A stretch of DNA of 64,000 nucleotides from Porticoccaceae bacterium (GTDB lineage: Bacteria > Pseudomonadota > Gammaproteobacteria > Pseudomonadales > Porticoccaceae), in assembly GCA_018664075.1 (NCBI GenBank), contig JABJOY010000024.1:1-64000 (forward strand), in the 5' to 3' direction. Both the position numbers and the translations under genes were made by a program. Each line of letters opens with the position of its first letter. The stretch's first letter is position 1. The notes under the pieces were generated by a model. It was not told the origin of the DNA. It saw only the letters and a program-made list of their open reading frames with translations, and did no database searches. Below, piece by piece: positions 9,884 to 50,628 of this stretch.

Positions 9884-11125
9884 GTGCCTAGACAGAGTTT
9901 CTCGTTTGGTTATTTTTTAGCCACCATAGCGACCAGTAATCTGGCCATGGGCATCCATAAGGTGCTGTATCCCTGGCTGGTGGTGGGGGTTCTTCATGAA
10001 TCTCCCAGTCGGTTGGGTGTGGCCCAGTTGGCGCTGCTGTTACCCAATCTGCTATTTATTTTGCCCGGTGGCGTGGTGTCAGATCGCTCCCACCGCGGCA
10101 CCTGGTTGTCTCTGTTATTTCTGCTGTTTCTGTTGCCTCTCGGGCTGTTGATGGTGGCTGTGATCAGTGGCGAGCTAAGTTTTACCATGCTGCTGCTGTT
10201 TGGTATCACCTTTGGCAGTCTGCTGGCCTTTGTCCAGCCTGCCCGGGAGAGTCTACTCGGCTATGCTGCTCCAGAGCTAATGCATCAGGCCGTGGCCAAG
10301 GTGATGGCAACGCAGTTTATTGCTCAGGGCATTGGTTTTCTTATTGCCGGGCAGCTGGGTAACTTAAGCCTGCCCGAACTGCTGGCCATTCAGATTGTTA
10401 TTTTTGTGCTTAGCTCTATATTGATTAAACGCAGTCATCCTTTGCCCAAGCAGCAGCCGGAGGAGTTAGCCGAAAGGGGCGAGGTGGAAACAAAATCAGT
10501 AAAACAAACCTTGCTTGAACTGGGCGATGGGCTGCAGCTGTTTCGAGATGATAAAGGCCTGATACATCTATTGCTGATTGTTTTTGCCACAGGGTTTCTC
10601 GCCTTTGGCGTCTACCTGGTGGGCATGCCGCTGATTGCCCGGGAATTTTATAATGGCGGCGCTGAACTGTATGCGGCACTTCAGGTGGTGTTTAGTCTGG
10701 GTATTGTCAGTGCCAATTTGGGCGTGATGAAACAGGCCAAGCTCAATGCCAAACCTGGCCGCCTGATGGTCGTCAGCTTTCTGCTGAGAGGCAGTCTGGT
10801 TGGGGTGATTGCATTGGTGCCAAGCCTGTGGCTGCTGTTTCCCGTGGTCTATGTATGGGGCTTTTTCTCTGGGCTATCCATGACTCTGGGGCGAACCATA
10901 CTACATAACCAAGTATCCCATGCCATGAGATCCAGAGCGGCCTCTGTGTATCAGCTCTGTCTGTTGGCCGGTGCGCCGCTGGGGGCCTGGGTCTGTGGTC
11001 TGACTATTGAACGTATTGGTTTGAGCTCGGCATTTGTGCTGATTGCTGGTGCCACCTTGCTGGTCTCGGTTTTGACTGCTGTCTTTTCACCACTGTGGCA
11101 TCTAAAGGCGGTTAGATCTGCCTGA
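9884..11125 (+). CDS. MFS transporter (GTG start)
   Basis: 12-TM-like hydrophobicity, GGVVSDRSHRGTW MFS loop motif. Confidence 0.85.
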   Translation: MPRQSFSFGYFLATIATSNLAMGIHKVLYPWLVVGVLHESPSRLGVAQLALLLPNLLFILPGGVVSDRSHRGTWLSLLFLLFLLPLGLLMVAVISGELSFTMLLLFGITFGSLLAFVQPARESLLGYAAPELMHQAVAKVMATQFIAQGIGFLIAGQLGNLSLPELLAIQIVIFVLSSILIKRSHPLPKQQPEELAERGEVETKSVKQTLLELGDGLQLFRDDKGLIHLLLIVFATGFLAFGVYLVGMPLIAREFYNGGAELYAALQVVFSLGIVSANLGVMKQAKLNAKPGRLMVVSFLLRGSLVGVIALVPSLWLLFPVVYVWGFFSGLSMTLGRTILHNQVSHAMRSRAASVYQLCLLAGAPLGAWVCGLTIERIGLSSAFVLIAGATLLVSVLTAVFSPLWHLKAVRSA

Positions 11126-33236: not shown

Positions 33237-35447
33237 TTAGTACATCATATCCCGCGTCGCATTTAGCATCCATGGGAAGTACACCCCAAGCTTTGCCGCA
33301 CCGTAGGACACCCAGTACTCGATCTTCTGCATAAATGTCATCTCAACCTTCTCTGGCAGCTGCTGTTGCTGTCTGTCGAGATAGGCGTGAATGGCTTCTG
33401 CATCTTCCATGCTGTTAGTCTCGTAGAAACCCACCATGCCTTTGTGAGCTCTTGAGCCGCCCAGAACTATGCCGACAAAGTCTATATGGGTCTGCTCACT
33501 CATATAGCGCAGGTCAGGCACAACATAATTACTCTTGGCGCTGATACCATGACAAGTGCCACAGTTACGGCCATAGAGTTCCTCACCTTTTTTGATTATC
33601 TCAGGGTCGGTGATGGCTTCGTGGCCCAGGGCCAGAATGGTGGCCAGACTTTCATCGGGCAGGGTTTTGGTTTGGCCAAAGTCGCCCAGTTTAAAAACCA
33701 GCAGTTTGTTTTGATTGACCTTGTTGCGCTTCAGGTCGTCGCCGATCGTCAGCATTACTGTGCCGCCGCTGCCCTGGGCAACGGCGATATATTGCTCGCC
33801 GTCCAGCTCATAGCTCATGGGGCCAGCCAGTACGGCGCTGTCGGATTGATACTGCCATAGAGAGTCGCCATTTTCTGCATCATAGGCGGTGAAGGTGCCT
33901 TTGCCAGTGCCCTGGAAAACCAGGTCGCCGTCGGTGCTTAAAATGCCTCCATTGGCTGGTTTATCATGGTGCACTTTCCAGGCTGCTTCCTGTTTGACCG
34001 GGTCCCAGGCCAATAGCTCACCATAGACCAGAGCATCGGTTGAAGCTTTGCCGGCGACCCAGCTCAGAGGGTCTCTGGATTCATTCAGGTCGACGCCGGT
34101 GTTCCAGCGGTTAAGCTGATACTTGGTGGTTTTCTGGGCGCTAAAGTAATGGGGAATGCTCTGTGCCGGAATATACATCAGACCGGTTTTGGGGCTGAAG
34201 GACATGGGCTGCCAGTTGTGGGCGCCGTAGGGTGAGGGCCAGATATAGCTGCCACCATTTGACTGGTAGTCGGCATATTCTGTTTCTACCGGACGGCCGG
34301 TTTCCATATCAATATGGCTGGCCCAGGTTACTTTGGCGAAGGGTTCTGCGGACAGCAGCTCACCGGTGGCGCGGTCCAGCACATAGAAGAAGCCGTTTTT
34401 GGGCGCCTGCATTATCACCTGACGCATCTCGCCTTTGTGTTCAATCTCTGCCAATGTCAGCTGCTGGGTGGCGGTGTAGTCCCAGTTATCTTTGGGTGTT
34501 ACCTGATAGTGCCACACATAGGCACCAGTATCTGGGCGCAGGGCTACGATGGAACTCACGTAAAGGTTGTCGCCGCCGCCGGGGCTGCGCAGGTCGCGGT
34601 TCCAGGGGGAGCCATTGCCTGTGCCTATATAGAGTAGGTCCAGATCCGGGTCATAGACGATGGAGTCCCAGACGGTACCACCGCCGCCACCGAGCTTGTG
34701 CCAAGACTTGTCGCCCCAGGTTTCTACGGCTCTTTCAAGGGCAGGGTGTTCCTGAGGCTTGTTGGGGTCGCCCGGCACTGTGTAGAAACGCCATAACTGG
34801 TCGCCGGTGGCGGTGTCGTAGGCGGTGATATAGCCGCGCACGCCGAGCTCTGCGCCGCCGTTACCGATAATGATCTTGCCATCTACAATGCGAGGTGCGC
34901 CGGTGACACTGTAGTTGCTGTTGGCTGGGGTGGTCTGCACGGACCAGTTCTGTTCACCGGTCTTGGCGTCCAGTGCGATCAGACGTCCATCCAAGGTGCC
35001 AAAGAATACTTGCAGGCCTGTCTCTGCATCGCCCTGCCACAGGGCTACGCCGCGGTTGACTGCACCACAGCAGGCTTTAATCAGATGGTCTCTGGGTACC
35101 TGTGCATCGTAGTGCCACAGTTCTTCGCCGGTGCGAGCATCAAGGGCGTGAACATGGGCCCAGCCAGTGCTAACATAAAGTACGCCCTCGTGCATCAATG
35201 GCGTGGCTTCCATACCCCTTGCGGTGGAAAATTTAAATGACCAGGCGAGATCCAGTTCATCGACATTGTCGCGATTAATCTTATCCAGCGGGCTGAACCG
35301 CTGCTCTTTGTAATTGCGGCCGTAACTCAGCCATTCGCTGTCTGGATTGCTAATGGTCTCTTGATTGACGATGCTAGCCTGGGTTTGCATAACCCCAGCG
35401 CCCAGTAGCAACATTGCGGCGGTAACTTTGATGAGTCGGGATGCCAT
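33237..35447 (-). CDS. PQQ-dependent quinohemoprotein alcohol dehydrogenase (with C-terminal cytochrome c domain)
   Basis: Signal peptide; vicinal CC in KACCGAVNRGVALW; repeated ALDAxTGxxxW PQQ propeller motifs; NWDYTATQ; heme motif CGTCH. Confidence 0.93.
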   Translation of the reverse strand: MASRLIKVTAAMLLLGAGVMQTQASIVNQETISNPDSEWLSYGRNYKEQRFSPLDKINRDNVDELDLAWSFKFSTARGMEATPLMHEGVLYVSTGWAHVHALDARTGEELWHYDAQVPRDHLIKACCGAVNRGVALWQGDAETGLQVFFGTLDGRLIALDAKTGEQNWSVQTTPANSNYSVTGAPRIVDGKIIIGNGGAELGVRGYITAYDTATGDQLWRFYTVPGDPNKPQEHPALERAVETWGDKSWHKLGGGGGTVWDSIVYDPDLDLLYIGTGNGSPWNRDLRSPGGGDNLYVSSIVALRPDTGAYVWHYQVTPKDNWDYTATQQLTLAEIEHKGEMRQVIMQAPKNGFFYVLDRATGELLSAEPFAKVTWASHIDMETGRPVETEYADYQSNGGSYIWPSPYGAHNWQPMSFSPKTGLMYIPAQSIPHYFSAQKTTKYQLNRWNTGVDLNESRDPLSWVAGKASTDALVYGELLAWDPVKQEAAWKVHHDKPANGGILSTDGDLVFQGTGKGTFTAYDAENGDSLWQYQSDSAVLAGPMSYELDGEQYIAVAQGSGGTVMLTIGDDLKRNKVNQNKLLVFKLGDFGQTKTLPDESLATILALGHEAITDPEIIKKGEELYGRNCGTCHGISAKSNYVVPDLRYMSEQTHIDFVGIVLGGSRAHKGMVGFYETNSMEDAEAIHAYLDRQQQQLPEKVEMTFMQKIEYWVSYGAAKLGVYFPWMLNATRDMMY

Positions 35448-35488: not shown

Positions 35489-36076
35489 TTATTGTAGGGC
35501 CATTTCGATAAATTGCATACGATCCTGGCCGAAAAACATATCGTCGCCAATAAACATGGTTGGGGCGCCAAAACAGCCCCGGGCGACAGCCGCTTCCGTG
35601 TTGCTGATCAAGGCGGCTTTGACCTCTGGTTCCTGAGTACCGGCAATAATCTGTTGTGCATCAAGCCCGGCATCGGATAGCACTCTGCCAACAACCTCCA
35701 GATCACCCATATTCTCTCTATCGACCCAGATTGCATTGAACACAGCCTCTATGTAGGCCTGACAATACTCTTTGCCTTGAGCTGCAACGGCGCCGCGCAT
35801 CAGATTTAGGGTGTTGATGGGGAAGTGGGGGTTGATGGTCAGTGGCACCTGATACAGGGCGGCAAAGCGGGGCAGGTCATGGGCCAGCATGTAGTTGCCT
35901 TTGGCGGGAACTGTTACGGGCGATGTATTGCCTGTGGCTTTAAACAGGCCGCCGAGTAGTATGGGGCGATAGTCAATGGTGCAGTTATATTCTGCACCGA
36001 GTTGCTGGAGGCGTCGGTGGGCCAAATAGGCTGTGGGGCTACCGAAATCAAAATAAAATTCGACGGTTTGACTCAT
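35489..36076 (-). CDS. 2-hydroxychromene-2-carboxylate isomerase-like / kappa-class GST (DsbA-like fold)
   Basis: VEFYFDFGSPTAYLAHRRL, PFPINTL-like segment, GCFGAPTMFIGDDMFFGQDRM. Confidence 0.92.
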   Translation of the reverse strand: MSQTVEFYFDFGSPTAYLAHRRLQQLGAEYNCTIDYRPILLGGLFKATGNTSPVTVPAKGNYMLAHDLPRFAALYQVPLTINPHFPINTLNLMRGAVAAQGKEYCQAYIEAVFNAIWVDRENMGDLEVVGRVLSDAGLDAQQIIAGTQEPEVKAALISNTEAAVARGCFGAPTMFIGDDMFFGQDRMQFIEMALQ

Positions 36077-36206: not shown

Positions 36207-36797
36207 CTATTTGGCTGCAATCAGCGGATTGAGAATATCTTCAATCAGACTGATGCTGGCCTCTGGGCTCAGAGACTGGTGATCTCGCAGTCGGTTCCAG
36301 TATTCGAAAGACAAAATAGCGACAACGGCTTCCTGGATATTGTTGCCAAGCCCGGTTAGCTCCGGCAGCGAGGCGTAGATATTGCTGCGCAGCTGGTTTT
36401 GGTAGTGCTGGTAATTGTGCTTGAGAAATGCAGATCTCCAGCGCCTGGTGGCGGTGGATTTTAAAATATTGGCATGGTCTTCGTACAGATTGCCCAGCTG
36501 TTTTACGGTATGGGTAATGCGCTGTTGCAGGGGCTGCTGCTCATCGGCTTGTTGCAGACGGTGATTAAATTCTTTGCGCCACAGCTCGTCAGCGGTGGCA
36601 AAAATAGCCTCCATATCTTCAAAGTGACGGAACACTGAGCGGATGCCGACCTTGGCGTGATCAGCCACTTGCTGGGCCGTGGGTACCAGATTGCCCTGGG
36701 CGATAAGCTGCAGCATGGCTTCAACAATCACCTGTCTGCTGCGGTCGCTGCGAAGGCGGCGGCCATCTACTTTTGCTGGACTGGTGTTATCTGACAT
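36207..36797 (-). CDS. TetR-family transcriptional regulator
   Basis: RSRQVIVEAMLQLIAQGNLVPTAQQVADHAKVGIRSVFRHFEDMEAIF HTH. Confidence 0.9.
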   Translation of the reverse strand: MSDNTSPAKVDGRRLRSDRSRQVIVEAMLQLIAQGNLVPTAQQVADHAKVGIRSVFRHFEDMEAIFATADELWRKEFNHRLQQADEQQPLQQRITHTVKQLGNLYEDHANILKSTATRRWRSAFLKHNYQHYQNQLRSNIYASLPELTGLGNNIQEAVVAILSFEYWNRLRDHQSLSPEASISLIEDILNPLIAAK

Positions 36798-36880: not shown

Positions 36881-37954
36881 TTACAAACCACTATTATTAA
36901 CCAGGATAGCTGTGGAGTTGGCGGGCAGTGAAACTGCAGTGCCATCCTGCCCCAATGTAAACTGACTAAAATGCTCGTCGACGCCCTTTAACCAGGCGGC
37001 CTCGGCACCGAGCTGATCCAATGGCGGCACCACATGATAGTAGAGCAGGTGGCCCACATCGGCATCTCGCGCAGTTTCGGCGGCTTCTATTGGAGATGCA
37101 TGGTAGTCGAGTACATCATGAAATATTTTCGCCATATTATCCTGGCCCGCATTGGTCGCGCCCTGGTTCATAGCCTTGAGCAATTCAGGGGATAGGGCTT
37201 CATGGACCAGCAGGTCAATACCCCGGGCAAATTTTTCAATATTGGCTGATTTACTGGTATCACCAGAGATCAGAGCGGTGCGGCCGGCGTAGCTAAATCT
37301 GTAGGCTACGGCGGGAGAGATAGGAAAATGATCCACTGCCAGCATTTCTACTGTTAGACCGTCCTGTTCATAGACAGTGATAAGTTCGTCATCAGCGGGG
37401 ACTGGGGCACTGACTGCGACCATACCGGCGCCACTCAGCGGTGTGGTGTTATCCCCGTGATGATCATTGCGGTAGATCACATCCTGAGCATAGGCTTGAT
37501 TAAAACCATCGACTACCGCGGATACACCCTCAGGGCCATAGATATTAAGCGGTGCATCGTGAGCGCCATTGGCCCAGCGCAATGTGGCTACCTCGCCAAG
37601 ACCATCGATATGATCAGAGTGGAAATGAGTGACAAAAACACCGCTTACCTGCCCGGGTGAATAGCCCATGCGGCCAAGGTTGCGTATGCCATTGCTGCCA
37701 CTGTCGACCAAAAATAGTTTACCGGCAGCAACTACTGCGACACAGGGTCCAGACCGGCTCGCCGAGGGCATTGGACCACCGGCACCGCACAGGGCTATAT
37801 GCAGGCCATCGCCCAGCGCATCGATCTTGTTACTTTGCAGATTGGCTTCCATGCCCTGGGGCACAAGCCTGAGAAAAATATCGCCCCGCTGGCTAAAGAG
37901 GGCCAGTCCCAAAATAAGCAGTATCACAGCTGAGATATAGCGTTCTTTCATCAT
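36881..37954 (-). CDS. MBL-fold metallo-hydrolase (RNase Z/arylsulfatase-like), N-terminal membrane anchor or signal
   Basis: VFVTHFHSDHIDGLGEVATLRW, LFLVDSG, ALISGDTSKSANI; N-terminal hydrophobic helix. Confidence 0.88.
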   Translation of the reverse strand: MMKERYISAVILLILGLALFSQRGDIFLRLVPQGMEANLQSNKIDALGDGLHIALCGAGGPMPSASRSGPCVAVVAAGKLFLVDSGSNGIRNLGRMGYSPGQVSGVFVTHFHSDHIDGLGEVATLRWANGAHDAPLNIYGPEGVSAVVDGFNQAYAQDVIYRNDHHGDNTTPLSGAGMVAVSAPVPADDELITVYEQDGLTVEMLAVDHFPISPAVAYRFSYAGRTALISGDTSKSANIEKFARGIDLLVHEALSPELLKAMNQGATNAGQDNMAKIFHDVLDYHASPIEAAETARDADVGHLLYYHVVPPLDQLGAEAAWLKGVDEHFSQFTLGQDGTAVSLPANSTAILVNNSGL

Positions 37955-39117: not shown

Positions 39118-39591
39118 TTATGCCTTTTTATTCTGCAGGGACAGCACCAGCATAATGCTGGCTATAGCTAGCAGCGGCAAATTGCTCACAGCCCCCGGAG
39201 GCACATGTTCGTAATAGGGTGTTGACAATGGATGCATGGTGCCTGCTGCCATGCGCATAGGCATTTCGATCACCACGGTGAGCCATAGTAGTGGCAGCAG
39301 GTTGCGATAGCGCCACATGCAGACATAAAAAATAGTCAGGGTTATCAGCTGAGCTGACCCCCAGAGCGAGGCAAACAGATAAATCACATTATTGGGGTTG
39401 GGAGCGCCCTCCGCAAAGGGGAAGATAATAATTGAAGCTATGCTGTTGATGCCGCCATCGTCCGCTAGGAAATGCATAAAGCCGCGAAAGGTGTACATGG
39501 CGATCAGCAGATAAAACACATACAGGGCGATGTTATTGCCCTGATAATCGTTATTGGCCTGCTTGGGAAACAGTTTATCGATAAGACTCAT
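39118..39591 (-). CDS. Hypothetical membrane protein (about 4 TM)
   Basis: 157-aa ORF with four hydrophobic segments; between convergent/divergent neighbours. Confidence 0.65.
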   Translation of the reverse strand: MSLIDKLFPKQANNDYQGNNIALYVFYLLIAMYTFRGFMHFLADDGGINSIASIIIFPFAEGAPNPNNVIYLFASLWGSAQLITLTIFYVCMWRYRNLLPLLWLTVVIEMPMRMAAGTMHPLSTPYYEHVPPGAVSNLPLLAIASIMLVLSLQNKKA

Positions 39592-39718: not shown

Positions 39719-41098
39719 ATGACAGAGCAATTTAAAGAGCAGGGTGGGGCGGCGACTATGGACCCGAGCGCCGCCTTCCGCTGGCTGTCCTCAAAGGTTA
39801 TGACCTATATTATCAGCCCCCGGCGGCAGGCTAAAATACGGGCAAAAGCCGAAAAACACCGCCGCGCTGCTGGTGCTCGACATGTGGTTGAATACTTTCA
39901 TCAGGTGGAGGACGGTTATAGTCATTTGGCGGCTCAGGCACTGCAGTCTCTGAGCCAGCGCTATGATATTGATCTGCGCTGTTATCTGGTTAGTGGACCG
40001 TCCGGGGGTAATAGCGTTGAGCCTGATCTGTTGTTGAAACTCTCCCATTATGATGCCTCGCTTATCGCTCCCCATTACAATCTCGATTTCCCCCAGTCAA
40101 AGGGGCTTTCCGACCCTGCGGCAATTGCTCAAGCAGAATCAATTTTGGCTGCCCAGGACAGTAAGAGCTTTATTGCGCTGGCGGCTGCTGTGGGTGCTGC
40201 TCTGTGGTCTGGTGACGCTGTAGCTCTAAATACATTGGCAGAGCAGCATGGTTGCGCAGCAGAGAAGCAGGCTGAAGCCTGTCTGGCCCAGGGCAATGCC
40301 CGGCGCGCTGAGTTAAAACATTATTCCGGAGCCATGTTCTACTATGGTGAGGAATGGTATTGGGGTGTTGATCGGCTGCATTATTTAGAGGAGCGCCTGG
40401 CTGAACTGGGAGCGGATAAGGATCCACAGCAGCCCATGCTAATGCCAGGCTTTGGGGTTGAAGCGGGCAGGCACAGAGACAATGGCAGCCTGACATTGGA
40501 GATTTACCCTTCATTGCGCAGTCCATATACCGCCATGGTCTTTGACCAGACATTGGCACTGGCGGAGACGACCGGGGTTAACCTGGTGGTGCGTCCTGTG
40601 CTGCCCATGGTCATGCGCGGTGTGCCTGCGACTCGTGAGAAGGGCATGTATATCTTTACCGATGCGGCCCGTGAGGCGCGCAGTGCCGGAGTGCCCTTTG
40701 GTAACTTTTATGACCCCATTGGCGAGCCTGCGAGGCGCTGTTATTCGCTTTATCCCTGGGCCTGTGAACAGGGTTTGGGCAACCAATTACTATCCAGCTT
40801 TCTGAGTTCCGCCTTTGTCCAAGGGGTTAATACCAATAATAATCGCGGCCTTAAACTGGTGGTTGAAAAAGCCGGGCTCGACTGGTCTGTGGCTAAAACT
40901 CTGCTCGGCCAGTCTGGCTGGCAGGAGATATTGGAGAGCAATCGACTGGCCATGTATCAGGCTGGTCTCTGGGGTGTGCCGAGTTTTCGCCTGTTGGACA
41001 AGCAGGGTGAGCCGGTGCTGGCACTCTGGGGTCAGGATCGACTATGGTTGCTGGCCCGGGAAATTGAGCGCCTGTTGGCGCTGAACACAGAGTCTTAA
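39719..41098 (+). CDS. Tandem DsbA/HCCA-isomerase-like thioredoxin-fold protein lacking CxxC
   Basis: N-half VVEYFHQVEDGYSHLAAQAL and C-half LEIYPSLRSPYTAMVFDQTL plus WGVPSFRLLDKQGEPVLALWGQDRLWLLAREI; two domain repeats in one ORF. Confidence 0.75.
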   Translation: MTEQFKEQGGAATMDPSAAFRWLSSKVMTYIISPRRQAKIRAKAEKHRRAAGARHVVEYFHQVEDGYSHLAAQALQSLSQRYDIDLRCYLVSGPSGGNSVEPDLLLKLSHYDASLIAPHYNLDFPQSKGLSDPAAIAQAESILAAQDSKSFIALAAAVGAALWSGDAVALNTLAEQHGCAAEKQAEACLAQGNARRAELKHYSGAMFYYGEEWYWGVDRLHYLEERLAELGADKDPQQPMLMPGFGVEAGRHRDNGSLTLEIYPSLRSPYTAMVFDQTLALAETTGVNLVVRPVLPMVMRGVPATREKGMYIFTDAAREARSAGVPFGNFYDPIGEPARRCYSLYPWACEQGLGNQLLSSFLSSAFVQGVNTNNNRGLKLVVEKAGLDWSVAKTLLGQSGWQEILESNRLAMYQAGLWGVPSFRLLDKQGEPVLALWGQDRLWLLAREIERLLALNTES

Positions 41099-41111
41099 TA
41101 AGGTTTTTTTT

Positions 41112-42635
41112 ATGGCATCAAAACAATCGGATCATCACAGCATTGGCCCATTTATGGATCGCGTCGCGGAGTCGCTGGATGGCAATCGCAGCGCCGATGT
41201 TCAAAAACGTCATGGCAAAGGTTATCGCACCGCCCGGGAGAATCTCGAACATCTGGTGGATGGGGGCAGCTTCGTTGAGTACGGGCAGTTTGCCGTGGCA
41301 GCTCAGCGCAATCGCCGCAGTGCTGTGGAGCTTAAATCCAAAACTGCTGCCGATGGTGTGATTACCGGATTGGCAAGAATTAATACCGACCTGTTTGGGG
41401 CTGACCAGTCCCAGGCGGCGGTGATTATCAATGATTATATGAGCCTGGCTGGTACCCAGGGGTTTTTCCACCATGCCAAGATAGACCGAATGTTAGAGGT
41501 GGCGACCGAGCGATCACTGCCGGTGGTGATGTATACCGAGGGCGGCGGTGGCCGGCCCGGAGATACGGATGTCAGTACCCAGATAGCAGGTCTTAATATC
41601 ACCACCTGGCTGGTGTGGAGTCAGCTGGCGGGAGTTGTTCCCCGTATTGTGGTCAACAATGGCTACTGTTTTGCCGGTAATGCAGCTCTGTATGGGGGTG
41701 CAGATATTTGTATCGCTACCAAGTCGTCCTTTATCGGTATGGCTGGCCCGGCCATGATTGAAGGCGGCGGTCTGGGATCTTTTGCGGCAGAGGAGATTGG
41801 TCCTGCGGAGGTTAATACCAGAAATGGGGTGATTGATATTCTGGCCGCAGATGAGACAGAAGCAACAGCTCTGGCCCAACAGGTGCTGGGGTATTTTCAG
41901 GGCCCGCTCAAGGACTGGACTGTTGCAGATCAAACGCTGCTGCAGAGCATAATGCCGGAGGACAGGCGCTACACCTACGATATTAGAAAGCTGATTAATG
42001 TACTGGCCGACGACGATAGCTTTTTGGAGTTACAGCCTGAATATGGCAAAACTATTGTCACTGGTTTTGTGCGCATTGAAGGCCATCCCTGTGGCTTGAT
42101 CGCCAATGACAATAAGGTGCTGGGTGGTGCTGTGGATGCCGTGTCGGCGGCCAAGACGGCACGGTTTTTAAATCTTTGCAGCAGTTTCTCTCTGCCCGTG
42201 ATTAGTCTCTGCGATACCCCGGGCTTTATGGTTGGGCCGGACAGCGAGGCTGAGGGTGCCGCCCGAAAGATGGCCGAACTATTTACTGCGGGCGCCAATC
42301 TTAAGTCACCCCTGGTATGTATTTTTGTGCGCAAGGCCTATGGTCTGGGCGCCATGGCCATGGCCGGCAGCTCCTTTGTCAAGCCGGTCTATAGTGCCGC
42401 CTGGCCCATGGGCGAATTCGGTGGTATGGGTCTTGAGGGTGCGGTGAAGCTAGGCTTTAAAAAAGAGCTGGAAGAACTTGAAGGCGAGGCGCGGGAAGAT
42501 CTGTTTAACAAGCTGGTGGCCAAGATGTACGAGGGAGGCAAGGCAGCGGAGGCAGCGGCATTTTTGGAGATCGATGGGGTGATTAATCCTATGGATACCA
42601 GAGCCGTGATTATCAATAGTATCGGATTAAATTAA
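41112..42635 (+). CDS. Acyl-CoA carboxylase, carboxyltransferase subunit
   Basis: ADGVITGLARINTD, CDTPGFMVGPDSEAEGAARKMAEL, VRKAYGLGAMAMAG, WPMGEFGGMGLEGAV. Confidence 0.93.
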   Translation: MASKQSDHHSIGPFMDRVAESLDGNRSADVQKRHGKGYRTARENLEHLVDGGSFVEYGQFAVAAQRNRRSAVELKSKTAADGVITGLARINTDLFGADQSQAAVIINDYMSLAGTQGFFHHAKIDRMLEVATERSLPVVMYTEGGGGRPGDTDVSTQIAGLNITTWLVWSQLAGVVPRIVVNNGYCFAGNAALYGGADICIATKSSFIGMAGPAMIEGGGLGSFAAEEIGPAEVNTRNGVIDILAADETEATALAQQVLGYFQGPLKDWTVADQTLLQSIMPEDRRYTYDIRKLINVLADDDSFLELQPEYGKTIVTGFVRIEGHPCGLIANDNKVLGGAVDAVSAAKTARFLNLCSSFSLPVISLCDTPGFMVGPDSEAEGAARKMAELFTAGANLKSPLVCIFVRKAYGLGAMAMAGSSFVKPVYSAAWPMGEFGGMGLEGAVKLGFKKELEELEGEAREDLFNKLVAKMYEGGKAAEAAAFLEIDGVINPMDTRAVIINSIGLN

Positions 42636-42653
42636 TAACAACAGGAGGCCATT

Positions 42654-42944
42654 ATGGCACTGGGAGTACTGGCAACAATTACCGTTCAAGAAGGTAAAAA
42701 TGAAGAATTTGAAACCCTGTTTAAGGGCCTGACAGAAAAGGTATTGGCCAATGAGGAGGGTACATTGCTCTATGCGTTGCATCGCAGTAAGTCCAACCCT
42801 CAGGAATATGTGGTAATGGAGCAGTATCGCAGTGCCGCTGATATCGATGCCCATGGCAAGACGGATTACTTTCTTGAGGCGCAGAAAATGATGGGTGGGC
42901 TGGTGTCTGCTGCGCCGGTTATTCAAGTGCTGGATGTGGTTTAA
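42654..42944 (+). CDS. Antibiotic biosynthesis monooxygenase (ABM) domain protein
   Basis: TITVQEGKNEEFETLFKGLTEKVLANEEGTLLYALHRSKSNPQEYVVMEQYRSAADIDAH. Confidence 0.9.
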   Translation: MALGVLATITVQEGKNEEFETLFKGLTEKVLANEEGTLLYALHRSKSNPQEYVVMEQYRSAADIDAHGKTDYFLEAQKMMGGLVSAAPVIQVLDVV

Positions 42945-42981
42945 ACCCTGAAATCAAACGTCAAACATTAGGAAAATAATA

Positions 42982-43359
42982 ATGAATAAAGTCCTTAAAA
43001 TAGTGGTGGCCTTACTGGCCCTGGTTTTTGCTTCGATTGGCCTGCGCTGGCTAGTGGCACCGGAAGGGGTCGCTGTCGAATTCGGTATGATATTAATGGA
43101 GGGGCTGGGTCTTAGCTCGCAAATTGGTGATCTGGGTGCCTTCTTCTTATCTCTGGCCATTTTTATCCTGCTGGCGCTGACCAGCGGTCGCCGCTTTTGG
43201 TATTACCCGCCGATTATTCTGCTGGGTCTGACAGCGATTATGCGCACGATGGCATGGATGTTTCACGGTGCCAGTCTGGCGGTGGATATGATTGCTGTGG
43301 AAATTATTGCCTGTGTGGTTCTCTATCTTGGCTCGGCCCGGTTAGCTGACGAGGACTAA
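42982..43359 (+). CDS. Hypothetical small membrane protein (about 4 TM)
   Basis: 125-aa ORF, hydrophobic segments; 2-nt gap to sulfatase gene. Confidence 0.7.
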   Translation: MNKVLKIVVALLALVFASIGLRWLVAPEGVAVEFGMILMEGLGLSSQIGDLGAFFLSLAIFILLALTSGRRFWYYPPIILLGLTAIMRTMAWMFHGASLAVDMIAVEIIACVVLYLGSARLADED

Positions 43360-43361
43360 TA

Positions 43362-45146
43362 GTGAAATCCATTTTCGGCCGGTGCCGACCACTGACCCTT
43401 TTGTTGCTACTGTTATCGGCACTGGGTCAGTCCGCACTGGTAAACGCTCAAGAGAGTCCCAATATTGTTTTGATTCTGGCTGACGATCTGGGCTTTAGCG
43501 ATCTGGCATCCTATGGCAGTGAAATCCACACGCCGAGTATTTCGGCACTGGCGGAGCAGGGTGTTAGCTTTACTAACTACCATACCGGCGCCAATTGCGC
43601 GCCGTCCCGGGCCATGTTGTTGACTGGTGTGGATAGTCATCGCACAGGTGTGCCCAATATTCCGGAAATGATCCCGCCAGAGCAGTCCAAGTACAGCCAT
43701 TATTCTGGCACCCTGGGCCACAATGTGGTGACTGTGGCGACATTGTTGCAGGACGCTGGCTATCACACCTATATGGCGGGCAAGTGGCATCTGGGTCAAG
43801 CCCCGGATCAGCTGCCCAGTGTTCGGGGCTTTGAGCGCACAGTGGCGCTGGCGGATTCTGGAGCCGATAACTGGGAGCAGAAACCCTATCTGCCAATCTA
43901 TAAAAAAGCTAACTGGTATGCGGATGGACAGGACTATCAATTGCCCGAGGACTTTTATTCGTCGCGCTTTTTAGTGGATAAAACCATTGAGTTTATCGAT
44001 AGCAATCAGGGTGATGGCCAGCCTTTCTTCGCCTATGTGCCATTTCAGGCGGTGCATATACCGGTACAGGCACCCCAGGAATATATTGATCGCTATATGG
44101 GTGTTTACGATGATGGCTGGACGGCCCTGCGCGCAGAGCGATTGGGGCGCGCTATTGAACTGGGAATAGTGCCAGCTGATACTGCCATGGTAACTATGGC
44201 CAGCACCTCTGATTGGGATGCTTTAAGTGCGGATGAGCAAGCCTATGAAGCCAAGCGTATGGCGGTCTATGGCGCGATGGTTGAAGCTATGGATCATCAT
44301 ATTGGCCGCCTGGTGAAACACTTAAAAGCCATAGGCGAATATGACAATACAGTATTTATTTTTTCCTCGGACAATGGCGCCGAAGCCATGGGCGAGCCAG
44401 TTCAAAATTCTTGGAGTAATAGTCGCCGCCCGGCCTCTCAGGGTTACAGTGTCGACTATGAAACTCTGGGTCTAAAGGGTAGTTTTAATGCTATTAACCC
44501 CGGTTTTTCCAGTGCTGCTGCATCACCTCTATCCTATTACAAATTTTATCTGGGTGAGGGCGGTATGCGGGTGCCGATGATTATTGCTGGCGCGGGCATA
44601 GAGACCAGGAATCAGCTGAGCAATGCCTTTACCTTTGTTACCGATATCACACCAACGATTCTCGCCCTGGCCGATGTGGAGCCAGCGCCTGCTCGCTATG
44701 GGGGCCGTTTGGTAGAGCCGATTATTGGTCAGAGTCTTATGCCTGTGCTGGAAGGCAGTGCCGAGGCAGTTTATGGGCAGAATGATGCGGTGGGTTACGA
44801 GTTAGTCGGCCATGGGGCATTATTTATGGGCGACTATAAAATTGTCTTTAACCGGGATATCTGGGGAGACAACCAGTGGCGTCTGTTTAACATTGTTGCG
44901 GATCCGGGCGAGACCAATGATCTTAGTGGGCAAAATCCTGCTCAGTTACAGCTTATGCTGGGCCGCTATCAGCAATATCTAGCGGAGAATAATGTTCTGC
45001 CTATGCCAGCGGGCTACAGTTTTTTGACGCAGGTTACGTATAACGCGCTGAATAACGTCTTTCGCGACAATATCCTGATTGGTATTTTAATGTTTTTCCT
45101 CTTGCTGCCTTTTGTGCTGGTTTATCGCAGTAAATCAAAAGGCTAA
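43362..45146 (+). CDS. Type I sulfatase (arylsulfatase-like), secreted with C-terminal TM anchor (GTG start)
   Basis: PNIVLILADDLGFSDL, formylglycine motif CAPSRAMLLTG, YMAGKWHLG, FSSDNGAE; C-terminal hydrophobic helix ILIGILMFFLLLPFVLVYRSK. Confidence 0.93.
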   Translation: MKSIFGRCRPLTLLLLLLSALGQSALVNAQESPNIVLILADDLGFSDLASYGSEIHTPSISALAEQGVSFTNYHTGANCAPSRAMLLTGVDSHRTGVPNIPEMIPPEQSKYSHYSGTLGHNVVTVATLLQDAGYHTYMAGKWHLGQAPDQLPSVRGFERTVALADSGADNWEQKPYLPIYKKANWYADGQDYQLPEDFYSSRFLVDKTIEFIDSNQGDGQPFFAYVPFQAVHIPVQAPQEYIDRYMGVYDDGWTALRAERLGRAIELGIVPADTAMVTMASTSDWDALSADEQAYEAKRMAVYGAMVEAMDHHIGRLVKHLKAIGEYDNTVFIFSSDNGAEAMGEPVQNSWSNSRRPASQGYSVDYETLGLKGSFNAINPGFSSAAASPLSYYKFYLGEGGMRVPMIIAGAGIETRNQLSNAFTFVTDITPTILALADVEPAPARYGGRLVEPIIGQSLMPVLEGSAEAVYGQNDAVGYELVGHGALFMGDYKIVFNRDIWGDNQWRLFNIVADPGETNDLSGQNPAQLQLMLGRYQQYLAENNVLPMPAGYSFLTQVTYNALNNVFRDNILIGILMFFLLLPFVLVYRSKSKG

Positions 45147-45173
45147 TAACGCTTATTCGACGAGTACAACTGT

Positions 45174-46295
45174 ATGACCCATGCCCTCTATGCCTTGCCC
45201 CATTCATTATATTCAGGCCGAGCCCGCTCCTACCTGATTAAAAACAATATTCCCTTCCAGGAGTTTTCCTGTGGCCATGAGAGTTTTAAAGCGGAGATTG
45301 TGGCCGAAGCCAAGCTGGCTACCATTCCGGTACTGCGCACCGAAGAGGGGCAGGTGATTCGCGATGGCGCTGCTATTATTGAGTATTTCGAAGCGGCTAA
45401 CGGTCGCCCCTGTCTGCCGGCAACGCCAAAGCAGCAAATTGTCAGTGGGCTTTTTGATCTGATTGGTGCCGAGGGCCTGCTGCGTCCCGCCATGCATTAT
45501 CGCTGGAATTTTCCCGAGGAGAATCTGTCTTTTTTGCACTACCACTTTTTTCATTCGCAGCGCGACCATCCAGAGCGCGAGGCTAAAACTCAACATATGA
45601 TGGATAAGATGCGCTATGCAGCCACTGTATTTGGGGTTACTGATGATAGCCGCGAGCTGGTAGAGGCTCTGTACATGGAGTTTTTACTGGCTCTGGATAA
45701 GCATTTTGAACAGTACCCCTATCTGTTGGGTTGGAAACCCTGCATAGGTGACTTTGGTTTATTGGCGCCGCTTTTTGCTCATCTGGGTCGCGACCCAAAG
45801 CCATTACAGATAATGCAGCAGCAGGCTGTACATGTGTATCGCTGGGTGGAACGTATGAATCGTTCAAATCAGGATGTCCCGGAGTACTATAATGCGGGCT
45901 CTGGCTTTCTGGCAGATGATCAGATTCCGGATACCTTGCTGGCAGTGCTGCGCGCTGCGGCGCAAGATTTTCTGCCCGAGACCAGAGCTGCTGCACAGTC
46001 TATTAATGGCTGGCTAGCGGACAACCCTGCGGCCAGGGGCGATAGGGCCTCGCGTTACTTGGGGCAGAATGAAGGCAAAGCCCACTTTGTGGTGCGCGGG
46101 CAGAGCTTTGAGACCGGCGCCCAACCTTACAGATTTTTCCAGCTACAGATAGTTCAGGATGCCTATAAATCGTGCGATGACGCTGAGCGTGCCGGCATAG
46201 AGACTATGCTGGATTCTTGTGGGCTGCAGGAGTTGCTGACTATTGAGCTCGACCGGCGGCTGGAGCAGCGGGATAATTTGGAGGTCTGGGTCTAG
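45174..46295 (+). CDS. Long glutathione S-transferase-like protein, paralogous to 38073-39110
   Basis: YALPHSLYSGRARSYLIKNNIPFQEF, LATIPVLRTEEGQVIRDGAAIIEYFE; long C-terminal extension. Confidence 0.82.
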   Translation: MTHALYALPHSLYSGRARSYLIKNNIPFQEFSCGHESFKAEIVAEAKLATIPVLRTEEGQVIRDGAAIIEYFEAANGRPCLPATPKQQIVSGLFDLIGAEGLLRPAMHYRWNFPEENLSFLHYHFFHSQRDHPEREAKTQHMMDKMRYAATVFGVTDDSRELVEALYMEFLLALDKHFEQYPYLLGWKPCIGDFGLLAPLFAHLGRDPKPLQIMQQQAVHVYRWVERMNRSNQDVPEYYNAGSGFLADDQIPDTLLAVLRAAAQDFLPETRAAAQSINGWLADNPAARGDRASRYLGQNEGKAHFVVRGQSFETGAQPYRFFQLQIVQDAYKSCDDAERAGIETMLDSCGLQELLTIELDRRLEQRDNLEVWV

Positions 46296-46482: not shown

Positions 46483-48555
46483 ATGGTCGCGCTAACATCT
46501 ATGGTTGATTACAACGTCGAAGGGGGCGTTGCTGTATTAACTCTCAATAACCCCCCGGTTAATGCTCTGAGTCAGGGTGTTCGACAGGGTCTCAAAGAAG
46601 GTGTTGAAAAGGCGTTAGCCGATGACTCTGCCCAGGCAATAATGATCTTTTGTGAAGGCCGCACCTTTATTGCCGGTGCCGATATCTCCGAGTTTTCCTC
46701 TGGCCCTATGGAGCCTAATTTCCATGCGGTGCTGTCGACCATGGATGCATCTCCCAAGCCAATTGTTGCCGCAATTCACGGTACTGCTCTCGGCGGTGGT
46801 CTAGAAACTGCGCTGTGCTGTAACTACCGGGTTGCGGTGAGCAGTGCCAAGTTTGGTCTGCCGGAAGTGAATCTGGGTCTGTTGCCTGGCGCCGGTGGCA
46901 CCCAGCGATTGCCCCGTGTTGTTGGCGTAGAAAAAACCCTGGCCATGGTGACCTCTGGTGTCCCCATAGGTGCTGCTGAAGCCCATCAGCTGGGGCTGGT
47001 TGACCAGCTGGTTGAGGGTGACTTGCGCGCTGAAGCATTGGCCTTTGCCAAAGATAAGGCGGCTCAGGGCGGCTCTCATCCACGGGTGCGCGACAATGAT
47101 GACAAGTTGCAGAGTGCCAAAGATAACCCGGAAATTTTTGCAGCTACGCGCAAGATGCTGGCCCGTAAGACTCGCGGCTTTTTGGCCCCGGAATACAATA
47201 TTCGCTGTATTGAAGCGGCGGTTAATCAGCCCTTTGATGAGGGTTTAAAAACCGAGGGCAAACTCTTTGCTGAGCTAATGGCTGGCCCTCAGTCCCAGGC
47301 CCAACAGTATTTCTTTTTCTCTGAGCGTCAAGCAGGCAAGGTGCCGGGGCTATCAGATGATGCCAAAGAATTACCTATTGCCAAGGTGGGTGTTATTGGC
47401 GGTGGCCTGATGGGCGGAGGTATTTCCATGAACTTCGCCAATGTCGGTGTGCCTGTGATCATTGTGGAAACCAGTCAGGAAGCACTGGATCGCGGTCTGG
47501 GTACTATCCGCAAAAACTATGAAAACACTGCACGCAAAGGTCGTCTGACCGAAGAGGCCGTGGAGCAGCGCTGTGGCCTGATTCAGGGCACTGTGGATAT
47601 GGCCGACCTGGCTGACTGTGACCTGATTATCGAAGCTGTGTTTGAAAATATGGCGGTCAAAAAAGATATCTTTACTCGCCTAGATGAGATTGCCAAACAG
47701 GGCGCTATTCTTGCCTCAAACACCTCAGCGCTGGATCTCAATGAAATCGCCGCTGTGACCAGCAGGCCTGAGTCAGTGATTGGCCTGCATTTTTTCTCCC
47801 CAGCCAATGTTATGAAACTTCTTGAAGTGGTGCGCGGAGAAAAAACCTCTGACGATGTGATTAAAACCAGTATGGCGCTGGCCAAGCGCATTCGCAAAGT
47901 GGCGGTGCTTGTAGGTGTTTGCCCGGGCTTTGTAGGCAACCGTATTTTATTTCCACGCCAGATTGAAGCCAGCAAGCTGGCCCTTGAAGGCGCGCCGATC
48001 GAGCAGGTGGACAAGGTGCTATTTGATTTTGGCTTCCCAATGGGAGCATTCCAGATGGGTGATCTGGCCGGCCTGGATCTGGGTTGGGATAAAGATAACT
48101 CCGACCCAATGGATGTTAAGGATCGCCTCTGTGAACTGGGTCGCCGCGGTCAAAAGACCGCTGCAGGCTATTACGACTACGATGAAAAGCGCATGCCAAC
48201 ACCAGCTGCTGTGACTGCGGAACTGTTTGCCGAGGTTGCCGCAGCCCAGGGTATTATTCAGGGGGATATTTCCGATGAAGAGATTCTCGATCGCTGCCTG
48301 TTACCCATGATCAATGAGGGGGCAAAAATCCTCGACGAAGGTATTGCCGTGCGCGCCAGTGATATTGATGTGACCTATGTCTACGGCTATGGCTGGCCCG
48401 TCTATCGCGGTGGCCCCATGCACTATGCCAACAGTATGGGTCTGGATAAGGTGCTGGCAAAAATCAATCATTACCATGAGACCACAGGTGATGACTTCTG
48501 GGCGCCAAGCTCACTGCTGGTATCATTGGCAGAGCAGGGCAAGCGCTTTAAATAA
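46483..48555 (+). CDS. Enoyl-CoA hydratase / 3-hydroxyacyl-CoA dehydrogenase (FadB/FadJ-like bifunctional)
   Basis: [84 protein letters not shown]. Confidence 0.95.
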
Positions 48556-48585: not shown

Positions 48586-49554
48586 ATGAAGACACGTATT
48601 ACAGAGCTGTTGGGTATTGAGCATCCGATTATTCAGGGCGGTATGCACCATGTCGGCCTGGCTGAGATGGCGGCTGCTGTATCCAATGCCGGCGGTTTGG
48701 GTATTATCACAGCTCTGACCCAGGGCACCCCAGAGAAGCTGGCGGCGGAAATTGCTCGCTGTAAAACTATGACCGACAAGCCCATTGGCGTGAATATCAC
48801 TTTTCTGCCCTCTATGACACCACCGGATTATCCAGGTCTGATTCAGGCGGTGATAGATGGCGGCGTAAAAATTGTTGAGACAGCTGGTAATAACCCTGCA
48901 CCTTATATGCCTGCGTTAAAAGAAGCTGGTATTAAAGTGATTCACAAATGCACCGCGGTTCGCCATGCCCTAAAAGCTGAGAAAGTGGGCTGCGATGCGG
49001 TATCGGTGGATGGCTTTGAATGTGGCGGCCACCCGGGTGAAGATGATATCCCCAACTTTATTCTGTTGCCCAGAGCTGCCGATGAACTGACCATTCCTTT
49101 TGTGTCTTCCGGTGGTATGGCCGATGCCCGCAGTCTGGTGGCCTCTCTGGCCATGGGTGCTGATGGTATGAATATGGGGACCAGATTTATTGCTACCAAA
49201 GAAGCGCCAGTCCATGACAATGTAAAAGCCGCTATTCTGGCTGCCAGTGAGTTGGATACCCGTCTCGTAATGCGCCCATTACGCAATACCGAGCGTGTGC
49301 TGAATAACCCTGCGGTAGAACGTTTGCTGGAGAAAGAAAAAGCCCTGGGTGCAGATATTAAAATCGACGATATCCTTCCGGAAGTGGCTGGTGTTTACCC
49401 GAAAATCATGAAAGAGGGTGATATGGATGCCGGTGCCTGGTCCTGTGGTATGGTGGCTGGACTGATCAATGATGTACCCACGGTACAGGAATTGATGGAC
49501 CGCATTATGTCTGAGGCGGACAGCCTGATTAAAGACCGTTTAGCTGGTCTTTAA
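48586..49554 (+). CDS. Nitronate monooxygenase / NAD(P)H-dependent flavin oxidoreductase family
   Basis: GIEHPIIQGGMHHVGLAEMAAAVSNAGGLGIITA, GCDAVSVDGFECGGHPGEDD, GADGMNMGTRFIATKE. Confidence 0.93.
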   Translation: MKTRITELLGIEHPIIQGGMHHVGLAEMAAAVSNAGGLGIITALTQGTPEKLAAEIARCKTMTDKPIGVNITFLPSMTPPDYPGLIQAVIDGGVKIVETAGNNPAPYMPALKEAGIKVIHKCTAVRHALKAEKVGCDAVSVDGFECGGHPGEDDIPNFILLPRAADELTIPFVSSGGMADARSLVASLAMGADGMNMGTRFIATKEAPVHDNVKAAILAASELDTRLVMRPLRNTERVLNNPAVERLLEKEKALGADIKIDDILPEVAGVYPKIMKEGDMDAGAWSCGMVAGLINDVPTVQELMDRIMSEADSLIKDRLAGL

Positions 49555-49593: not shown

Positions 49594-50628
49594 ATGTCTG
49601 TAGTAGATACATTAGATGAGGCTCTCCTGGCCAGCTATTTAGAGGCCAATGTTGAGGAGTTTAAAGGCCCCTTAACCGCCAACAAATTTGCTGGCGGTCA
49701 GTCTAACCCCACGTTTAAAATTGATGCTGCCTCTGGCTCCTATGTGCTGCGTCGTCAGCCGCCGGGCAAGCTGCTCAAATCTGCCCATGCAGTGGATCGC
49801 GAGTATCGGGTTTTAGCGGCACTGGCCGATACCGATGTGCCTGTAGCCAGGGTCTATCACCTCTGTGAAGACCCGGAAGTGATAGGTTCCATGTTTTATA
49901 TTATGGAATTCTGTGATGGCAATGTGCACTGGGCATCGTCTCTGGAGGATGTTTCCAGTAATCAGCAGCGGGCCAAAATGTATGACGAGATGAGCCGGGT
50001 TATGGCGGCGATTCACTCGGTAGATCTTGAGAAAGTTGGACTCAGTGACTATGGTCGTCCGGGCAATTATTTCCAGCGCCAGTACGATCGCTGGTCTGCT
50101 CAGTACAAAGCATCCGAGTTAAAGCCGATCCCGGAGATGAATCAGGTGATTGAATGGCTGGGCAATAATATTCCTGAGGACGATGGCAAGGTGTCCCTGG
50201 TTCATGGCGACTACCGGCTGGATAACCTGATGTTTAGCGCAGACAATGAGCGCGTGATTGCAGTACTGGATTGGGAGCTGTCCACATTGGGCCATCCCTA
50301 TGCAGATCTGGCCTACCAGTGCATGGGCATGCGCCTGCCTTCAGGCAATGGCCCCGGTGCTTCCTCCGGGCTGCTTGGTGTAGATACTCAGGCATTGGGT
50401 ATCCCCAGTGAGCAGGACTATATCGACAGCTATTGCCAGCGTATGGGTATCGACAAACTGGATAACTGGAATTTCTATCTGGCGTTTAGTTTTTTCCGTT
50501 TAGCGGCTATTGCCCAGGGCGTAGCCAAGCGAGCGGCGGATGGCAATGCCTCCAGCAAGGCTGCCGGCGGCATTGCGACTTTGGTTCAGCCCATTGCTGC
50601 CAATGCTTTAGCCATTATTAACGGGTAG
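49594..50628 (+). CDS. Phosphotransferase (APH/ACAD10-11 N-terminal-like) family protein
   Basis: FAGGQSNPTFKI, YVLRRQPPGKLLKSAHAVDREYRVL, LVHGDYRLDNLMF, VIAVLDWELSTLGHPYADLAY. Confidence 0.92.
   Translation: MSVVDTLDEALLASYLEANVEEFKGPLTANKFAGGQSNPTFKIDAASGSYVLRRQPPGKLLKSAHAVDREYRVLAALADTDVPVARVYHLCEDPEVIGSMFYIMEFCDGNVHWASSLEDVSSNQQRAKMYDEMSRVMAAIHSVDLEKVGLSDYGRPGNYFQRQYDRWSAQYKASELKPIPEMNQVIEWLGNNIPEDDGKVSLVHGDYRLDNLMFSADNERVIAVLDWELSTLGHPYADLAYQCMGMRLPSGNGPGASSGLLGVDTQALGIPSEQDYIDSYCQRMGIDKLDNWNFYLAFSFFRLAAIAQGVAKRAADGNASSKAAGGIATLVQPIAANALAIING

Follow-up and report, generated by a model that had tools for sequence, protein, structure and literature searches.

Six plus-strand open reading frames (ORFs) at positions 39719 to 46295 of a 64,000-nucleotide stretch of DNA (here called the window) form the edge, specific to the clade, of a larger locus arranged as pqq-hccA-tetR-mbl / gstA / operon / fadB-nmo-aph, in which gene 1, encoding a fused pair of kappa-class glutathione S-transferase (GST)/HCCA-isomerase folds, is the core. 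The window is part of a 79-kb contig in a 2.06-Mb SAR92-type (Porticoccaceae) metagenome-assembled genome (MAG), the nearest named relatives of which are SAR92-clade and Porticoccaceae genomes. Judging from the sequences, we place at roughly 0.55 the probability that the six genes constitute the SAR92 form of a conserved module for periplasmic desulfation of a lipophilic organosulfate, followed by glutathione- and CoA-dependent catabolism. An original prediction, made from the window alone, had proposed desulfation followed by CoA- and glutathione-dependent processing, and this scheme is broadly supported. The argument draws on gene content, order, and conservation, on sulfatase catalytic residues, and on protein folds and hydrophobic segments, all of which are directly observed.

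An alignment of 36 sequences divides the gene 1 product into two homologous halves. The halves match each other with an hhalign E value of 4e-12, half 2 matches the single-domain protein HccA at 9e-20, and HccA is a profile relative of both halves. Half 2 carries the motifs SPY, GVPSF, and WGQDR; in half 1, DxYS replaces SPY, and WGxDR is present. The catalytic Ser-Pro-Tyr of half 2 lies at the start of helix 1 (P269 and Y270 invariant, S268 in at least 90%). Profile matches were obtained to 3fz5 (2e-14), 2imd (5.9e-14), and GSTK1 (7e-09). The AF2 model (pLDDT 92.9; PDB TMt 0.80 to 2imd and 0.73 to 1yzx) adopts a DsbA-type thioredoxin (Trx) fold with an inserted helical domain, close to HCCAi/GSTK1. 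No solved structure covering both halves was found, the best query TM-score being 0.38. The protein previously labeled "tandem Trx-fold" is more precisely a kappa-GST/HCCA-isomerase fusion. By analogy, the gene 1 product probably acts as an isomerase or transferase that depends on glutathione and whose first site is degenerate, and it is possibly an internal pseudo-dimer. Assignment as a DsbA/FrnE disulfide oxidoreductase was rejected, as the window protein has no CXXC motif and no Cys falls among the conserved columns. Three SAR92 genomes (L065, L066, and L067) encode a second gene 1 paralogue (57 to 58%), which has its own conserved neighborhood with an AMP-ligase-like gene, a short-chain dehydrogenase/reductase (SDR), and TonB-type receptors.

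Gene 5 encodes an S1 sulfatase (sulfatase A) that aligns with the Pseudomonas aeruginosa arylsulfatase PAS (1hdh) over residues 31 to 547 (E = 5.9e-117). Its CxPxR motif reads C79-A-P-S-R83, the metal- and sulfate-binding residues are all present, and D41, D42, C79, R83, K141, H143, H232, D337, N338, and K394 are invariant in ten aligned proteins. Hydrophobic segments at residues 11 to 29 and 570 to 588 of the window copy fit the predicted membrane-tethered sulfatase, with desulfation probably taking place outside the cytoplasm. Two sulfatases are encoded in the window's genome: gene 5 and one of a second S1 type (sulfatase B, L137:8794-11561) on contig C37, where the neighbors are DUF2855, FadD, SDRs, an FMN ene-reductase, an acyl-CoA dehydrogenase, and an enoyl-CoA hydratase. 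In strain H231, the sulfatase B set runs straight into pqq-hccA-tetR-mbl-gstA-operon-fadB-nmo-aph, spanning ∼29 kb in total (L138 and L032 positions). This contiguity is the strongest sign of a pathway ending in beta-oxidation. With a neighborhood rich in CoA-ester genes, the CoA processing of the original prediction gains support; its uptake step does not, since no uptake gene lies within the operon. Other recurrent neighbors of gene 1 or sulfatase A relatives are DUF3604-like proteins (L136:11289-13076, L041:1565-3421, and also L144).

Drawing on 369 genomes of the class and 399 of the phylum, we found gene 1 relatives in 11 and 15 genomes, respectively, besides the window's own. The surroundings of these relatives were mapped by tblastn, including those in GC-rich genomes (L107, L115, and L119 to L121). 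In other classes, tandem gene 1, the two S1 sulfatase types, the metallo-β-lactamase (MBL)-fold hydrolase, a GST, a TetR-type regulator, and a formylglycine-generating enzyme (FGE) co-cluster. Locus L117 contains, in a row, gene 1, FGE, mbl, sulfatase A, gstA (a 46% relative, sitting between both sulfatases), and sulfatase B. FGE also adjoins the module in L116 (FGE, gene 1, mbl, tetR, sulfatase B, and sulfatase A) and L121 (mbl, gene 1, hydrolase, gst, tetR, and FGE), in both of which tetR is near gene 1. The MBL hydrolase recurs beside gene 1 in these classes; partial sets include mbl and gst in L120, mbl in L118, and both sulfatases in L114 and L172. Genomes G746 and G110 each encode only two sulfatases, all adjoining gene 1. 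In G069 and G087, gene 1 is located elsewhere, yet sulfatases, GSTs, the gene 4-type membrane protein, TetR, and DUF2855 cluster together (L139 and L141). A search of a plasmid collection with gene 1 returned no match.

Linkage was assessed in 13 genomes with matches above ∼230 bits, selected solely on the strength of the match; G110, a genome picked by context, was left out. Within ∼10 kb of gene 1 lay 6/36 sulfatases, where placement at random predicts 0.23 (P = 0.001 for three genomes having one or more nearby sulfatases and 8e-10 for three having two or more); these figures are indicative, with the count of five for the fragmented genome G438 being seven partial hits merged by hand. With gene 1 as bait, the gene neighborhood was conserved rather than scattered, and the predicted combination of a sulfatase with GST-fold proteins extends, together with the tandem Trx-fold protein, across classes. 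Two side observations concern these distant loci. In L114, a GST N-terminal-like stretch (10601-10898) precedes sulfatase A in frame and is perhaps the remnant of a fused GST. Alpha/beta hydrolases resembling haloalkane dehalogenases adjoin gene 1 in L114 and L121, although Pfam assigns only the general hydrolase fold; a halogenated sulfolipid substrate is a guess.

Among close relatives, all six genes are kept in the same order and with similar gap sizes in L032, L033, L035, and L072. Only the carboxyltransferase gene is gone from L031 and L034, where the flanking genes have closed up to 47 nt. The larger gaps before some relatives' sulfatases are upper bounds, as the gap script places these starts too far downstream. 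The relatives retain pqq-hccA-tetR-mbl (minus strand) and gstA (plus strand) upstream and fadB-nmo-aph downstream, with fadB following the locus in close SAR92 relatives. The 157-aa membrane protein between gstA and the operon is kept in some relatives, partial in L032, and absent in L034 and L072. In five Halieaceae loci (L041, L044, L046, L047, and L049), tetR is directly upstream of gene 1 and mbl downstream, and a TonB-type receptor is often present at Halieaceae gene 1 loci. Haliea salexigens (L041) also has the gene 4/sulfatase A pair (48% and 62% identical), and gene 4 lies immediately 5′ of sulfatase A there and in L139 and L140. Relatives of gene 3 occur near gene 1 in L036 and L038 as well, and PQQ alcohol dehydrogenase relatives were found in 23 of the wide loci examined.

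The proposed catabolic role has several points against it. Ten of the 13 genomes have no sulfatase near gene 1, and gene 1 can thus work without one. A sister SAR92 clade (L053 to L059) has mbl, gstA, gene 1, and fadB without genes 2 to 6. No FGE-family protein of ordinary size was found in the window's genome (G000), where the only FGE-type domain is in a 697-aa protein (C93:26965-27723), a difficulty for the activation of its Cys-type sulfatases. Finally, the proximity of beta-oxidation genes could reflect a general tendency and not a functional tie. The sister clade and the two relatives without the carboxyltransferase also argue against taking the six genes as the natural unit, as do the distant partners outside the six (second sulfatase, MBL hydrolase, TetR, and FGE).

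We infer compartments, order of steps, substrate class, use of glutathione, and regulation as follows. Rather than a polysaccharide, the substrate would be a small lipophilic molecule in which sulfate esterifies a fatty, terpenoid, steroid-like, or phenolic alcohol. Sulfatase A, anchored in the membrane on the periplasmic side, and sulfatase B, perhaps with the MBL hydrolase, would strip the sulfate, and the PQQ alcohol dehydrogenase would oxidize the freed alcohol. In the cytoplasm, gene 1, HccA, and the long GSTs may carry out glutathione-dependent isomerization, adduct formation, or adduct removal; the glutathione synthetase gene gshB is present in the genome. The CoA ligase, ene-reductase, acyl-CoA dehydrogenase, hydratase, and FadB would then complete beta-oxidation, with TetR probably controlling the module.

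Other functions can be envisaged for the same genes. The module might instead disarm sulfated or electrophilic algal defense compounds: once the sulfatase had exposed a reactive group, this would be conjugated or isomerized by the GSTs and the tandem kappa-GST. Four GST-fold proteins in one locus, a TetR-type regulator, and the best fold match of gene 6, the styrene-epoxide GST StyI, would suit such detoxification, whereas the adjacent CoA ligase, acyl-CoA dehydrogenase, enoyl-CoA hydratase, FadB, and PQQ dehydrogenase indicate complete degradation and the conserved set has no efflux pump; we regard this role as rather unlikely. It is improbable that the genes are simply catabolic neighbors without a joint pathway, brought together by general enrichment of sulfatases, GSTs, and SDRs. 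The SDR, GST, and FadD families are indeed abundant, and gene 1 often occurs without a sulfatase, but the excess of sulfatases near gene 1 over random expectation, the two genomes whose only two sulfatases are both at gene 1, and the shared gene order in relatives speak against this reading.

Sulfur scavenging, with the sulfatases freeing sulfate for assimilation and the other genes handling the leftover alcohol, is quite improbable. In P. aeruginosa, the relative of sulfatase A functions under sulfate starvation, but sea water is rich in sulfate, and no sulfate or sulfonate transporter was recognized in the conserved set. A polysaccharide-related locus, the reading given to Halieaceae sulfatases (PMC10100682), would fit the marine algal habitat and the carrageenan sulfatases among the best solved relatives of sulfatase B. 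It nevertheless appears very unlikely, as no glycoside hydrolase, polysaccharide lyase, or other carbohydrate-active family was found among the genes scanned, sulfatase A is closest to the arylsulfatase PAS, and the partners are GST and CoA genes.

Table 1. Genes of the six-gene operon and its flanks (positions in the window)
Feature	Coordinates	Strand	Family or structure match
Pyrroloquinoline quinone (PQQ)-dependent quinohemoprotein alcohol dehydrogenase (PQQ propeller + cytochrome c; pqq)	33237..35447	-	PF01011 1.5e-89 + cytochrome c
HccA, single-domain HCCA-isomerase/kappa-GST-like	35489..36076	-	PF01323 2.6e-45
TetR-type regulator	36207..36797	-	PF00440 7.1e-05, slightly below cutoff
MBL-fold hydrolase with N-terminal hydrophobic segment (mbl)	36881..37954	-	PF00753 6.9e-15; 8gyg 4.2e-20
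gstA, long GST, 345 aa	38073..39110	+	GST_N_3 1.8e-10
157-aa membrane protein between gstA and operon	39118..39591	-	no family
Gene 1, tandem kappa-GST/HCCA-isomerase fold, 459 aa	39719..41098	+	Pfam DSBA on second half
Gene 2, stand-alone carboxyltransferase, long-chain acyl-CoA carboxylase type, 507 aa	41112..42635	+	Carboxyl_trans
Gene 3, ABM-domain protein, 96 aa	42654..42944	+	PF03992 3.4e-22
Gene 4, small multi-pass membrane protein, 125 aa	42982..43359	+	no family
Gene 5, S1 sulfatase A, CAPSR motif, 594 aa, GTG start	43362..45146	+	PF00884 1.4e-63
Gene 6, long GST with C-terminal extension, 373 aa	45174..46295	+	GST_N/GST_C; GST_N_3 6.2e-08
FadB-like enoyl-CoA hydratase/3-hydroxyacyl-CoA dehydrogenase	46483..48555	+
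Nitronate monooxygenase-like flavoprotein (nmo)	48586..49554	+	PF03060 2.4e-57
APH-type phosphotransferase (aph)	49594..50628	+	PF01636 3.3e-52

The six ORFs lie exactly where predicted, with intergenic gaps of 13, 18, 37, 2, and 27 nt, in that order. They represent real genes, as their products are ∼70 to 97% identical in four to six close relatives, where the gene order is the same and the gaps are again short. The domain guesses made for them were matched by Pfam/NCBIfam assignments (DSBA, Carboxyl_trans, ABM, none, Sulfatase, and GST). Co-transcription had been called very likely; the features that favor it are spacing and conserved order. A promoter and terminator scan was uninformative, giving no site above the level of shuffled sequence.

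Genes 2, 3, and 4 are accessory genes of the module. The best structure matches of gene 2 are 4rcn (3.8e-159, query 13 to 501) and 5fif (2.8e-148), and its dispensability follows from its loss in L031 and L034. The claim of a CoA-ester carboxyltransferase stands for the domain, which is of the long-chain acyl-CoA carboxylase type; no biotin carboxylase (BC) or biotin carboxyl carrier protein (BCCP) is encoded beside gene 2 in the locus, so that its CoA chemistry is putative. A complete carboxylase in the operon was rejected on these grounds and because gene 2 is dispensable. Three Biotin_carb_C loci occur elsewhere in the genome, one among leucine degradation genes, and a BC/BCCP partner may act in trans. 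Relatives of gene 2 are ∼1100-aa single chains, fusions of BCCP with the carboxyltransferase, or likewise stand-alone. Three relatives (L163:4417-6183, L164:4726-6495, and L165:4893-6659) have an N-terminal biotin-carrier-like domain, with no adjacent BC recognized. Gene 3, with an ABM domain and a weak LsrG-type match, encodes a putative oxygenase-type protein. Hydropathy analysis of gene 4 supports three strong hydrophobic segments; the four transmembrane segments first proposed are only plausible.

The gene 6 model (pLDDT 87.6) finds its best fold match in StyI (9qd3) at a modest query TM-score of 0.48 to 0.49. A profile match to IsoI (NF049950) was weak (22 bits against a cutoff of 300). 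RNase Z models and PNGM-1, in addition to 8gyg, match the mbl product.

Both SAR92 and Halieaceae are abundant in coastal waters and react to algal blooms, and their sulfatases have been interpreted as polysaccharide enzymes. In a Halieaceae study, 87 sulfatases were counted and read as potential for using sulfated polysaccharides (PMC10100682). Should the substrates of the module be small lipophilic sulfates, the count of polysaccharide sulfatases in Halieaceae and SAR92 would be partly misassigned, and a route of marine organosulfur turnover could be tested in a cultured strain, the studied SAR92 isolate H231 (PMC10746254). No published description of the cluster was found in the open-access literature, which likewise yielded nothing for DUF2855 and nothing relevant for DUF3604. 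The protein families are all known, whereas neither their combination nor the fused double kappa-GST as its core was found in that literature; the fusion is a searchable marker and a protein without a solved two-domain counterpart. Tentatively, and with less confidence than for the catabolic role, this fusion may be the signature enzyme of a glutathione-dependent route for lipophilic organosulfates that is widespread yet undescribed. It would have co-evolved with an MBL-fold sulfatase and two sulfatases of the S1 type, both in marine Gammaproteobacteria and in further classes of the phylum.

Several components resemble known systems and depart from them. Gene 2 shares the carboxyltransferase domain of the long-chain acyl-CoA carboxylase LCC (4rcn) but stands alone, without BC and BCCP. 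Unlike PAS, sulfatase A has N- and C-terminal hydrophobic segments and is accompanied by GST-fold enzymes and a sulfatase of a second S1 type. The mbl product, whose best solved relative is the MBL-fold arylsulfatase 8gyg, differs from it by an N-terminal hydrophobic segment. Glutathione/CoA-dependent degradation of the isoprene/styrene (iso/sty) type likewise combines GSTs with SDR dehydrogenases and CoA enzymes, and StyI resembles gene 6 in fold; no IsoI-subfamily GST at the cutoff and no di-iron monooxygenase were recognized in the locus, and sulfatases are not known to be part of iso/sty clusters. Lastly, both halves of gene 1 have the fold of the 2-hydroxychromene-2-carboxylate isomerase (NahD)/kappa-class GST family, in which the subunit has a single domain; gene 1 fuses two such domains, and its neighbors are sulfatases rather than naphthalene genes.

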